Source: Candidatus Latescibacterota bacterium
Lineage (GTDB): Bacteria; Krumholzibacteriota; Krumholzibacteriia; G020349025
Assembly: GCA_020349025.1 (NCBI GenBank)
Contig: CP070763.1
Span: 2,622,182-2,686,181, forward strand
Length of the DNA: 64,000 bases
Direction: 5' to 3'
The position numbers and the translations under genes are program-made. The notes beneath the pieces were generated by a model that saw nothing but the letters and a program-made list of their open reading frames with translations, ran no database searches and was not told the DNA's origin. This document shows positions 1 through 64,000 of this stretch, piece after piece. Position 1 is the stretch's first letter; every line of letters begins with the position of its first letter.

Positions 1-1222
1 AGCCGACGACGGCGCTGTCTGGGAGGTTCAGCTTCTTGATCGGTTTCTTGACGACCGTGGTGCCACCACGCGCGAGGAGCTCGAGTGCCTCGGCATCGTT
101 CTCCTTGAGCTGGGCGAAGGAGAGCACCTGCCCTTTGCGCAGGTACTGTTTGATGGCGGCCGCGGTACTGAGGCGGACCGAGACGGCGGCATCGATGCCC
201 ACCACGTGCACGAGCGGCACGTAGTTCGTGCGGCGAATCAGCGCGATCGTCTTGCGAGCCCCGAGCCGCCGCGCCAGGAGACACGACATGACATTCGTCT
301 CCTCGTCGTTCGTCGCGGCGATGAAGGCGTCCATCTCGTTGACGTTCTCGTTCTCGAGGAGCGTCACGTCGGTGCCGTCACCATGCAGCAGCATGACCTT
401 CTCCAGCTCGCGCGAAACGCGCTCCGCCTTGGAGCGGTTGTGCTCGACGATCTTGACGTTGACCTTTTGGGAGACGAGGTGGCCCGCGAGGTGGCGTGAG
501 ATGGGACCCGCGCCGATCACCATGACGTTGCGCGCGGCTTCCACGTCCTGGCCCACGAGTCCCATGACGTCCGGCATGAGCCAGCTCTCGCCGATAAGGA
601 AGATGTGATCTCCGGCCTGCAGAACGGTGTCGCCGTCGGGGATGAGTGTGTTCTCCTCGCGCAGCACGGCGACCACGGTGACCGGCAGCGGACCGTACTT
701 GCTGTCGAGCTCGCGTAGGGGGACACCGGCCAGCGGGCTGCGCCCACCCACGTGCAGGCCGATCATGCGCACACGAGCGTCGGCGAAGTCGGTCACGTCG
801 GTGGCGCCCGGCAGAGACACGAGTCGCTCCATCTCGAGCGCTGCAGCCAGATCGGGATTGATCATCACGTCCACCCCGACCTGTTGCATCGAGCGGCCGG
901 AGCGCGGCCCGTAGTACGTCGTGTCCTTGACGCGCGCCAGGCGCCGCGGGATTCCGAGGGTCTTGCCGCTGACGCAGGCGACGATGTTGACCTCGTCGAC
1001 ATGCGTGACGGCGATGATCATGTCGGCGCTGCCGGCATCCGCCTGCTCGAGCACCTGCAGGCTCGCCCCGTTCCCGAGCACGACCAGCGCGTCGAGCGCG
1101 TTCTGCGCGCGCTCGGCACGCTCCTCGTCGTTGTCGATCACGATGACGTCGTGACCTTCTTGGGAGAGGTGGGAGGTGACGTGGTTGCCAACCTCGCCGG
1201 CACCAACGACAACGATCTTCAT
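1..1222 (-). CDS. trkA: Trk potassium uptake regulatory protein TrkA (3' end missing)
   Basis: Peripheral NAD(H)-binding subunit that gates a TrkH/KtrB-type potassium channel at the inner membrane. The protein starts MKIVVVGAGEVGNH, a Rossmann GxGxxG dinucleotide fold, followed by the acidic end of beta-2 (VIVIDND). A second Rossmann copy begins near residue 231 (NVMVIGAGPISRHLAG), giving the duplicated TrkA_N/TrkA_C architecture of full-length TrkA. About 407 residues are visible; E. coli TrkA has 458, so only part of the last TrkA_C domain lies beyond the left edge. The matching trkH would be expected further left. The family call is firm; no partner gene is seen in the window. Confidence 0.95.
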   Translation of the reverse strand, partial: MKIVVVGAGEVGNHVTSHLSQEGHDVIVIDNDEERAERAQNALDALVVLGNGASLQVLEQADAGSADMIIAVTHVDEVNIVACVSGKTLGIPRRLARVKDTTYYGPRSGRSMQQVGVDVMINPDLAAALEMERLVSLPGATDVTDFADARVRMIGLHVGGRSPLAGVPLRELDSKYGPLPVTVVAVLREENTLIPDGDTVLQAGDHIFLIGESWLMPDVMGLVGQDVEAARNVMVIGAGPISRHLAGHLVSQKVNVKIVEHNRSKAERVSRELEKVMLLHGDGTDVTLLENENVNEMDAFIAATNDEETNVMSCLLARRLGARKTIALIRRTNYVPLVHVVGIDAAVSVRLSTAAAIKQYLRKGQVLSFAQLKENDAEALELLARGGTTVVKKPIKKLNLPDSAVVG

Positions 1223-15890: not shown

Positions 15891-17228
15891 ATGCGGCATG
15901 CAGGACGCGCTCGGAGCTCGAGCGCGGGCGCGTATGGTGGCGCCGACGGCGGCCTGCAGCGCACCCGACTCGAGAACGGGCTCGACGTGATTCTCATGGA
16001 GAACCATGTGGTCCCGCTCGTGACGATCGAGATCGACGTCAAGAACGGTGCCTACACCGAGACGGCAGAGTACGACGGCCTCTCGCACCTGTACGAGCAC
16101 ATGTTCTTCAAGGCCAACGAGAGGATCCCCGACCAGGAAGCGTACCTGCGCCGCGCACGTGAGCTCGGGATGGAGTGGAACGGCACCACGAGCGAGGAGC
16201 GCGTGAACTACTTCTTCACCCTGCATCGCAAGAACCTGCGTGCCGGGCTCGACTTCATGAACGACGCCATCCGCACACCGCTCTTCCGCCAGGACGAGAT
16301 CGAGCGCGAGCGCCCGGTCGTGCTCGGCGAGTACGACCGCGCCGAGTCCGATCCCACCTACCACCTGATCGTCGCCGTGCAGAAACGGCTCTGGTACGAG
16401 CACTACACGCGCAAGAACGTCCTGGGATCACGTGAGGTCATCGAGACGGCGACAACCGAAAAGATGAAGACGATCCAGTCGCGTTACTACGTGCCCAACA
16501 ACAGCGCACTTCTGATCGCCGGGAGCGTCGACGCCGACACCGCATTCGCCGCAGCGCAGGCGGTGTTCGGCAACTGGAGAGCGGGCCCCGATCCCTTCGA
16601 GGCGCATCGAATCCCCCCTCATCCGCAGCTGCGGCAGTCGACGACGATCGTGGTCGAGAAACCGGTGCAGTCGGTGATGCTCGCCATGGGCTTCCACGGC
16701 CCGAGCGTCGCTGAGGACCGCAACGGCACCTACGCGGCGGACGTCTTCTCCTACATCTTGGGGCAGCGCAATAGCCGCTTCTACCGCCGGCTCGTCGACA
16801 GTGGCCTGTGTGTCAGCGCCTCGCTCGGGTATCAGACGCTACGCCACACCGGTCCCATCCACGCGCTCCTGCGAACGGAGGTGGAACCGTTTCAAGCGGC
16901 GCACGATGCCCTGCTCGACGAGATCGCGCACTTTGCCGATGCCGACGCCTTCACGGACGAGGAGCTCGACAACGCCAAGAACCAGCTCGAGGTCTCGCAC
17001 GTCTACGAAACGGAGCGCCCCTCGAACCACATCCACACGGTCGGCTACTGGTGGGCTGTCGCGGACCTGGAATACTACGAAAGCTACCTCGCCGAGCTGC
17101 GCCGGGTGTCGCGAGCCGACATCCAATCCTTCGTTCGCCGTTACATCCTGGGGCAACCGTCGGTCACCGGCGTGTTGATGTCGCCGGAGATGCGAGCGAC
17201 GATCGGCCGCGTGAAGGGGGAAGCGTGA
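15891..17228 (+). CDS. M16 zinc metallopeptidase (catalytic subunit)
   Basis: 445 residues. The inverted zinc motif HLYEH is at 66-70, with Glu69 as general base; a distal Glu147 in VVLGEYDRAE lies 77 residues past His70, the spacing of the M16 HxxEH-x(74-76)-E site. The family (pitrilysin, insulysin, mitochondrial processing peptidase) degrades peptides or removes presequences. The N-terminus lacks a signal peptide in this frame; the ATG is fixed by GGAGGAGAACGC immediately before it. It overlaps the next M16 gene by 4 nt (GTGA), as expected for two subunits that form one clam-shell. Confidence 0.93.
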   Translation: MRHAGRARSSSAGAYGGADGGLQRTRLENGLDVILMENHVVPLVTIEIDVKNGAYTETAEYDGLSHLYEHMFFKANERIPDQEAYLRRARELGMEWNGTTSEERVNYFFTLHRKNLRAGLDFMNDAIRTPLFRQDEIERERPVVLGEYDRAESDPTYHLIVAVQKRLWYEHYTRKNVLGSREVIETATTEKMKTIQSRYYVPNNSALLIAGSVDADTAFAAAQAVFGNWRAGPDPFEAHRIPPHPQLRQSTTIVVEKPVQSVMLAMGFHGPSVAEDRNGTYAADVFSYILGQRNSRFYRRLVDSGLCVSASLGYQTLRHTGPIHALLRTEVEPFQAAHDALLDEIAHFADADAFTDEELDNAKNQLEVSHVYETERPSNHIHTVGYWWAVADLEYYESYLAELRRVSRADIQSFVRRYILGQPSVTGVLMSPEMRATIGRVKGEA

Positions 17229-61723: not shown

Positions 61724-63007
61724 GTGGGACGCATCCTCCTGCTGATGACCACCACAACGTACAAGGCGCACGCATTCCTGCGCGCGGCCGAGCGCCTCGG
61801 TGCGGACGTCGTGGTGGGGACGGATCGTGCCCAGACACTCGCGGCGCTGAACCCCTCCGGGAACCTGACCTTGCCATTCGCGGACCTGGAGGGTGCGGCG
61901 CGACGCGTGGAGGAGTTTGCGGCAAAACGACCCCTGGCTGCGGTCGTGGCCGCGGACGACGAGGGCGCGCTCCTCGCCGCCCATGTCTCGGAGCGCTTGG
62001 GCCTCGCCCACAGCCCGAGGTCCGCTGTCAAGACGGCGTGTGACAAGTTGGCCACGCGCGAGGCGCTCCGAGACGCCGCTCTTGCCGTTCCCCGTTTCGA
62101 CGCATTCCGTCTCTCCGATGCACCCCAGCGCATCGCGGCGAGCGTGCGCTACCCCTGTGTTCTGAAGCCGCTACGGCTCGCGGCGAGCCGCGGCGTCATT
62201 CGCGCCGACGACCGACGTAGCTTCGAGCGTGCCTTCGAGAGGGTGCGCGCGATCGTGGCGGCGAGCGGCACGCCCGCGGCCGAGACGCTTCTGGTCTAGG
62301 ATTTCATCCCCGGTGTCGAGGTGGCGCTGGAGGGGCTTCTCGAACGTGGGCAGCTCCACACGTTGGCGCTCTTCGACAAGCCCGATGCGCTCGACGGCCC
62401 CTACTTCGAAGAAACGCTCTACGTCACACCGTCGCGGCTGCCGCAAAGCAAGCGCGATGCGGTCGAGAGCGCGGCGCGCCAGGCGCTCGCTGCGATCGGA
62501 CTGCGGCACGGACCCGTGCACGCGGAGCTGCGCGTCAACGACGCGGGCGCGTGGTTCCTCGAGGCCGCACCGCGCTCGATCGGCGGTCTGTGCGCCCAGG
62601 CCTTGCGCTTCGGGCGGGGAGACGTCTCGCTCGAGGAGCTCATCCTGCGCCACGCCCTGGGCGGCGTCGACGAGATTCCCCAACGCGAGGCGTGTGCATC
62701 CGGAGTCATGATGATTCCGATCCCGCGGCCTGGTATTCTCCGGGGGGTGGGTGGGCGTGAAGCCGCTCGGGCGATTCCCGGCGTGGAGGAGATCCGCATC
62801 ACCGTTCCGCGCGGCGAGACCGTGTTGCCGCCGCCGGAAGGAGCGCGCTACCTCGGATTCATCTTCGCGCGCGCTGCCACAGCGGACGAGGTGGAACACT
62901 CTCTGCGAGCGAGTCACTCCGCCTTGGAAATCGAGATCGAGGCGGTCGAGCCGTCGATCGCGGTCGCTCCGGAACCGCAGCCCCACCGGGGGAGGGAGAG
63001 AACATGA
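61724..63007 (+). pseudogene. ATP-grasp carboxylate-amine ligase gene interrupted by an in-frame TAG
   Basis: The frame encodes an ATP-grasp protein of about 427 codons: N-terminal VGRILLLMTTTTYKAHAFLR, HSPRSAVKTACDKLATREAL (the pre-ATP-grasp KxxxR), YPCVLKPLRLAASRGV (ATP lysine), then, after the break, FIPGVEVALEGLLERG, and the metal site HAELRVNDAGAWFLEAAPRS. Codon 192 (62297-62299) is TAG between LLV and DFIPGVEV; relatives have Glu here (LVEEFIPG), one base away (GAG). The frame is open on both sides, so this is a nonsense change or base error, not a frameshift. The GTG start has GAGG 7 nt upstream. The stop overlaps nfuA by 4 nt. Confidence 0.85.
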
Positions 63008-63597
63008 TCACGATCACCGATGCAGCCAAGAAGGAGCTCGCCGAGGCTCTGGCACAACAGGAGGAGAACGATTACTGCGTGCGGCTCTCGATCAGCGGCC
63101 GCGGTCCGAGCGGATTCGACTACGAGTTGTTGCTCCTGCACGAACACGAAAAAGCAGACGACGATGTCGTCGCGTACTCCGATGAGATGACCGTGCTCTT
63201 CGACGCCCAGAGCGCCGACAACCTCAAGGGCTGCACTCTCGACTACGTGGAGCTGCCGGGCGGCTACGGCTTCAAGATCGACAACCCCAATCCGCTTTGG
63301 ACCGACCCCGTCGCCATCAAGGTGCAGCGTGTCATCGACACCGAGATCAACCCGGGCGTGGCGACGCACGGTGGTCACGTGACGCTGCTCGACGTGAAGC
63401 AGGGAACCGCCTACATCCGCCTGGGTGGCGGTTGCCAGGGGTGTGGAATGGCGGACGTCACGTTGAAACAGGGGATCGAGGTCGCCATCAAGCAGGCGGT
63501 CCCGGAGATCGTCGACGTGCTCGACACGACCGACCACGCGGCCGGTGACAACCCCTTCTACCAGCCCGCGAAAGGTGGGCAGTCGCCGCTCGGTTGA
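63004..63597 (+). CDS. nfuA: NfuA-like Fe-S cluster carrier (HesB/IscA-like N-terminus, NifU C-terminus)
   Basis: 197 residues. Residues 1-95 resemble an A-type carrier but lack its three cysteines, as in NfuA (ITDAAKKELAEALAQQ, the FDYELLLLHEHE strand, GGYGFKIDNPNP). Residues about 105-175 are a NifU-like domain with Cys144 and Cys147 in LGGGCQGCGMADVTLKQGIE, preceded by VIDTEINPGVATHGGHVTLL. The protein delivers 4Fe-4S clusters to client enzymes, among them lipoyl synthase in known systems. The ATG overlaps the ATP-grasp stop (ATGA). It converges on the EgtB-like gene with an 18-nt gap. Confidence 0.92.
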   Translation: MITITDAAKKELAEALAQQEENDYCVRLSISGRGPSGFDYELLLLHEHEKADDDVVAYSDEMTVLFDAQSADNLKGCTLDYVELPGGYGFKIDNPNPLWTDPVAIKVQRVIDTEINPGVATHGGHVTLLDVKQGTAYIRLGGGCQGCGMADVTLKQGIEVAIKQAVPEIVDVLDTTDHAAGDNPFYQPAKGGQSPLG

Positions 63598-63615: not shown

Positions 63616-64000
63616 TCAACCGACGTCGCGCGCCAACCGCATCCCCTGGAAATTCCAGCGTTGGAAAGGATAGAAGTAGTTGCGATAGGTGACGCGCACG
63701 TGCTCCTGCGGCGTCACGCACGACCCACCTCGCTGCACGTACTGGCCGCACATGAACTTGCCGTTGTACTCCCCGAGAGCACTCGGGGCGGGCCGGTAGC
63801 CGGGGTAGGGAGCGTAGTCGCTGCGGGTGAGCTCCCAGACGTCACCGAACATCTGCTGCAGGCCGCTGCCATCGGCAGGACGCGGATGCATCGCCGCGGA
63901 GTCGACGAAATTGCCGGCCACGGCGGCATCGCGCGCCGCCGCCTCCCACTCGAACTCCGTCGGCAGCCGGGCGCTGCGCCAGCGCGCGTAGGCGTCCGCC
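63616..64000 (-). CDS. EgtB-like formylglycine-generating-fold protein (N-terminal part missing)
   Basis: Only the last 128 codons are in the window. [59 protein letters not shown] and [20 protein letters not shown] follow the order of the FGE-sulfatase domain of EgtB (hercynine-sulfoxide synthase of ergothioneine synthesis), where [18 protein letters not shown] and YRNFFxPxxRWxFxGxR are typical. Whether it makes ergothioneine, ovothiol or something else needs the rest of the gene. The DinB-like N-terminal domain of EgtB would lie beyond the edge. Confidence 0.85.

Follow-up and report, generated by a model that had tools for sequence, protein, structure and literature searches.

An ATP-grasp gene of the L-amino-acid-ligase type is interrupted by a single in-frame amber codon in the window, the whole stretch of 64,000 nucleotides that was analysed, which comes from an uncultured bacterium. 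Judged from the sequence, this codon is best explained, with reasonable probability, by recent nonsense mutation of an accessory gene. The same sequence fits a nonsense mutation and a one-base consensus error alike, and both appear favoured over a codon that is read through in the cell. The lone TAG is ordinary in itself. It would represent a lost or mis-sequenced accessory gene with no sign of an altered genetic code, and annotation of the lineage stays simple.

If a nonsense mutation occurred, it is possible to describe its consequences in some detail. A Glu codon would have changed to TAG inside the ATP-grasp domain of the enzyme, and translation would end after 191 residues. The fragment would lack the remainder of its ATP site as well as the C-terminal domain, and would most probably be inactive. 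The nfuA gene downstream would stay intact, possibly with some loss of translational coupling or some polarity.

The two parts of the gene can be recognized separately with Pfam models (Table). The 191-residue fragment that precedes the stop matches ATPgrasp_N (PF18130; E=1e-9, 39.2 bits, cut-off 27) and the start of ATP-grasp_4 (PF13535; E=1.9e-6, 28 bits, cut-off 27). Past the TAG the frame is open up to the native TGA, and the 235-residue fragment encoded there matches the remainder of ATP-grasp_4 (E=1.2e-18, 67.7 bits, cut-off 27) and LAL_C2 (PF18603; E=4.8e-18, 65.6 bits, cut-off 29.4). The ATP-grasp_4 domain therefore spans the interrupted codon, whose position we take to lie in the adenine-binding segment. 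The NCBIfam models match both halves only far under their cut-offs. The gene has the ATP-grasp domain and the LAL C-terminal domain of the ATP-grasp L-amino-acid-ligase-like enzymes; its ATP site is interrupted, with TAG in place of the conserved Glu.

Table. Positions of the interrupted gene, its parts and the genes that follow it in the window (G001 is a genome of the same family)
Feature	Position	Strand	Basis or remark
ATP-grasp/L-amino-acid-ligase-like gene, whole	61724-63007	+	
5' fragment, 191 aa, ending at the TAG	61724..62299	+	Translation; Pfam ATPgrasp_N and beginning of ATP-grasp_4
In-frame TAG, codon 192 counting from GTG 61724	62297..62299	+	Glu in homologues
3' fragment, remaining ATP-grasp_4 and LAL_C2, to the native TGA (63005-63007)	62300..63007	+	Pfam; 60.8% identity to G001
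ORF from the in-frame GTG 21 bases past the TAG	62321..63007	+	ORF list; may be a reinitiation start, though a weak one
nfuA-like Fe-S biogenesis gene	63004..63597	+	Start overlaps the ATP-grasp stop (ATGA)
FGE-sulfatase (formylglycine-generating-type) domain gene	63616-63999	-	Runs beyond the window end

Relatives of the enzyme were collected by scanning a genome collection with a profile made from the read-through window protein and its counterparts in G001 and in G025, a genome of the same class. The best 80 of at least 525 confirmed relatives form the survey set. By tblastn, the column of codon 192 is Glu in all 80 of these best loci (53 GAG and 27 GAA), and the codon is GAG in G001 and GAA in G025. 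A stop at codon 192 is present in none of the best 80 of at least 525 loci, nor in G001 or G025; the one TAG reported for G025 is its own terminal codon. Conservation at this level points to a residue that the enzyme needs. Two neighboring residues, Gly197 and Glu199, are likewise each kept in 80 of the best 80 homologues of at least 525. Stops of any kind interrupt five of these 80 alignments (best 80 of at least 525). Four fall close to the C-terminal end (window positions 407-415), and the fifth, a TGA in the Poribacteria locus L093, is the sole stop well inside the gene in the best HSPs. An earlier note on this DNA had described a TAG at codon 192 where relatives have Glu, two halves that remain open and conserved, and an nfuA gene coupled to the 3' end; all of this agrees with the codons of the relatives, with the Pfam matches on each side of the TAG, and with the ATGA that joins the two genes.

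The solved structures also place a Glu at this position. In profile comparison, the top match among solved structures is the L-amino acid ligase BL00235 (PDB 3vot; E=5.9e-49, profile positions 51-405), which has Glu at the position aligned to codon 192. Its gene is intact, however, and in the printed alignment Val is found opposite the conserved Cys of the family (window codon 290). The alanine-anticapsin ligase BacD (PDB 3wo1, 3wnz, 3vmm) is an ATP-grasp ligase as well (E from 6.6e-20 to 9.3e-20) and has Glu at the aligned position in both printed alignments, although its alignment is limited to profile positions 25-291.

The meaning of TAG in this genome bears directly on whether the codon could be translated. 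Release factor RF1 is present, with 506 bits, above its cut-off and without internal stop. From 424 kb of genome sequence, 187 long non-overlapping ORFs were taken. The stop is in view for 180 of them and is TGA in 123, TAG in 50 and TAA in 7, the ORFs being mechanical ones that may include some shadow frames. A search for PylS in the assembly, which is 86.6% complete, had no hit at E<=0.001. A tRNA family search gave 33 hits, 32 of which were typed by ARAGORN on the window, 30 loci and two further stretches. No CUA anticodon is among these 32, an inventory that is incomplete because no tRNA for Trp, Ile or Asn is labelled among the typed hits. A run of 100 N cuts into the 33rd hit (29 bits), whose anticodon is TCC by eye. 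Since RF1 is intact, TAG is a common terminator and PylS was not found, reassignment of TAG or a pyrrolysine system appears unlikely here. Amber recoding kept at the same site in relatives is not what is seen either, as Glu occupies the site in all of the best 80 of at least 525 loci and in G001 and G025. The pattern would fit a nonsense pseudogene: a premature stop absent from the homologues, in an organism where TAG, by RF1 and stop usage, terminates translation.

A suppressor tRNA or leaky termination might nevertheless allow the TAG to be read through, yielding some full-length enzyme. The conserved 3' half of the gene would be consistent with this, and a suppressor tRNA could be encoded, for instance, in a gap, given the incomplete tRNA inventory. 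Furthermore, the 64 bases from the TAG fold slightly better than their shuffles (z -1.73, with 12 of 200 as good). However, the lack of any stop at codon 192 in the best 80 of at least 525 loci, in G001 and in G025 gives no sign of a selected signal, and the state of RF1, TAG usage and PylS described above also speaks against it. We regard read-through as very improbable. The earlier note had treated TAG as an ordinary stop and reassignment as unlikely, and on both points the wider genome bears it out. It had offered three readings of the codon, of which the nonsense mutation and the assembly error are the favoured ones, while read-through finds little support and no relative with a stop at this place.

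It is also conceivable that the two fragments are made separately, with reinitiation at GTG 62321, and work together as a split enzyme. In favour of this, an in-frame GTG is located 21 bases past the TAG. The second fragment would, however, start beyond Gly197 and Glu199, each invariant in the best 80 of at least 525 homologues, and by eye no good ribosome-binding stretch is found at the usual distance from this GTG. Nor is there a precedent among the best HSPs of those 80 homologues (best 80 of at least 525), where no stop other than the L093 TGA lies well within the gene. Splitting with reinitiation was rejected on the conservation of Gly197 and Glu199, and we would give it hardly any probability at all. 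Read-through and a split enzyme both have little positive support.

How old might the lesion be, if the nonsense mutation is real? Identity to the G001 protein is 57.1% before the stop and 60.8% after it. Among highly conserved columns, those kept in at least 95% of the other rows, 5 of 97 are broken in the window gene; the corresponding counts are 3 of 98 for G001 and 14 of 100 for G025. The 82 other rows have on average 1.56 broken columns, with 80 of them at or below the count of the window gene. By this measure the window gene is at the high end, yet it is not decayed, and the mutation is called recent because of this lack of decay.

With 69 of 81 outgroups, relative rate comparisons with G001 give the higher number of changes for the ATP-grasp protein of the window, and chi-square exceeds 3.84 with 7 outgroups. 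The direction is reversed with G025 as the outgroup, with 35 changes in the window protein and 41 in G001. For nfuA, the window has more changes with 3 of 11 outgroups, none of which is above a chi-square of 3.84. As the outgroups share history, the slight excess on the window branch would be at most a hint of relaxed constraint. Of 80 genomes of the phylum, 3 contain close homologues of the ligase (E<=1e-40), and this number includes the organism's own genome, which has one match with the C-terminal half as the query. As close homologues are this rare, the function of the ligase seems dispensable in the phylum, which fits the loss of an accessory gene by nonsense mutation.

The main alternative is that the organism's gene is intact and the TAG is a one-base consensus error in a draft metagenome assembly. 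All but one of the codons are open and conserved, as such an error would leave them. The quality of the record is consistent with it too: 22 runs of exactly 100 N are present in the 465 kb examined, and completeness is 86.6% by the tool's figure. The 'single-contig' genome record is a draft of joined pieces, and gene absences in this genome are therefore weak evidence. Runs of 100 N occur in the genome's stretches L124, L125, L127-L130, L132, L133, L135, L136, L138 and L141, and in L129 they follow one another in places every 3-4 kb. The window itself has no N inside it, so the codon is away from a contig edge, which speaks against an error; one run ends at the base preceding the window start.

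Errors of this kind were also sought in the surroundings of the gene, by comparing the open frames of G001 contig C134 with the 144 kb around it. Among the 51 best non-overlapping matches to this part of G001 (20863 aligned columns), 20 stops occur, and by our reading only the TAG at 62297 is interior to a gene body in the gene's own frame. Four of the stops are in the match 71651_74326_- and were set aside, the frame 72892_74352_- covering window positions 15954-17225 with 71.9% over 424 residues. The other 15 precede a conserved start or fall in shadow frames, and were set aside by manual sorting, with no computed rule. A strict filter, which asked for 40 columns at 50% identity on each side of a stop, missed the window TAG (0.42 on the left and 0.70 on the right), owing to a variable segment immediately ahead of this codon, and selected a single stop, in 71651_74326_-. 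The comparison thus yields no second interior stop by our reading, which argues against a consensus error, apart from possible frameshifts at five pairs of abutting HSPs. A codon-usage scan for interrupted genes was dropped: it gave 1593 stops flanked on either side by 60 open codons, in DNA of 66% GC, and could not single out interruptions because gene ends and shadow frames are among these stops. Of its output, the stop-usage counts alone were retained, and the G001 comparison took its place. A literature search on nonsense mutations in metagenome assemblies found nothing. Taken with the rest, a consensus error is possible but rather doubtful, and a nonsense mutation is preferred.

The one stop well inside a homologous gene leads to a different kind of event, which concerns relatives of the enzyme; the window TAG would remain an ordinary nonsense codon. 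The Cys of window codon 290 is kept in 79 homologues of the survey (best 80 of at least 525), and the 80th, L093 from the Poribacteria genome G058, has its in-frame TGA exactly at this Cys. A search of 84 Poribacteria genomes gave a homologue match in 56, two of which are weak or short. In-frame stops occur in three of these genomes, G058, G129 and G137, and each is a single TGA. Twenty Poribacteria loci were read, a chosen and non-random set mostly of 73-80% identity to the query, in which the Cys codon is TGA in 3, TGT in 15 and TGC in 2. The TGA is at L093:5883-5885, L177:2374-2376 and L178:2374-2376, with L179 carrying it on the minus strand. In a nucleotide tree of the 20 loci, the three TGA loci form one clade with support of 1.000.

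The 114 codons past the TGA have far more synonymous than non-synonymous differences: 34 and 8 between L178 and L179, 32 and 8 between L177 and L179, and 9 and 2 between L177 and L178. The frame past the TGA seems to have been kept by purifying selection since the TGA arose, which argues against an accidental error and against a dead gene. The genes end in TGA in L177 and in TAA in L178 and L179.

These observations suggest that in the clade of G058, G129 and G137 the TGA at the conserved Cys is likely to be decoded as selenocysteine, making the enzyme a candidate selenium ATP-grasp ligase. SelB is above its cut-off in all nine Poribacteria genomes tested, the three TGA-bearing ones included, and SelA in both genomes tested (G058 and G059, the genome of L116). 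A tRNA-Sec is above its cut-off in G058, in G059 and in 7 of 8 further genomes, including G129. None was found in G137 among the 150 of 503 candidates scored there; in that genome a contig ends 93 bases from selB, in the direction in which other genomes would lead one to expect the tRNA-Sec gene. A conserved TGA in place of Cys, a selected frame and SelB together make the pattern expected of a selenoprotein.

The RNA past the TGA does not clearly contain a bacterial SECIS element. Folds of 53 to 63 bases past the TGA are no better than shuffles, with the exception of one short piece at z -0.87. Compensatory changes are lacking from the consensus of the three RNA sequences; of the 18 pairs in this consensus, 3 are disrupted, each in a single sequence. 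According to PMC13188914, the rules for bSECIS hairpins comprise a published spacing and loop and a limit of -7.5 kcal/mol. Hairpins built to these rules reach -7.8, -5.3 and -9.9 kcal/mol, so that two of the three pass the limit, and 62, 95 and 38 of 200 mononucleotide shuffles, respectively, are as good. The same limit is also reached by 2 of the 17 Cys loci (L196 and L181).

The candidate resembles the prokaryotic selenoproteins in that three relatives have a TGA at a conserved Cys in SelB-bearing genomes. It differs from them in its fold: Table 1 of PMC13188914, a 2026 review, has 119 prokaryotic selenoprotein families or subfamilies, and no ATP-grasp or amino-acid-ligase entry is among them. 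A full-text literature search for an ATP-grasp selenoprotein gave, in the passages it returned, matches on other subjects only. If the TGA does encode selenocysteine, the conserved Cys would be chemically important, in a ligase fold that is unlisted in that table. This would also provide a handle on the function of an enzyme that is sited near the Fe-S gene nfuA in some genomes.

In the window, nfuA is open across its NifU and Fe-S biosynthesis domains. Because the ribosome-binding-like stretch GGGAGGGAGAG precedes its ATG, nfuA probably can start on its own, although polarity from the interrupted gene may be possible. In G001, nfuA likewise follows the ATP-grasp gene, and in G025 an NfuA-like ORF, by our reading of the translation, precedes it. 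Among the best 80 of at least 525 survey loci, nfuA is matched at E<=1e-6 in 44, and over 150 residues at E<=1e-20 in 11. Queries with gcvT, gcvH, lplA and the FGE-sulfatase gene had no hit in the same 80 loci (best 80 of at least 525). The ATP-grasp gene recurs near nfuA in several lineages (window 61724-63597; L003; L004; 11 of the best 80 of at least 525 loci). Possibly, the ligase and its conserved Cys might be linked to Fe-S or thiol chemistry. On its other side, nfuA is adjoined by the FGE-sulfatase domain gene, which has a counterpart beside nfuA in G001.
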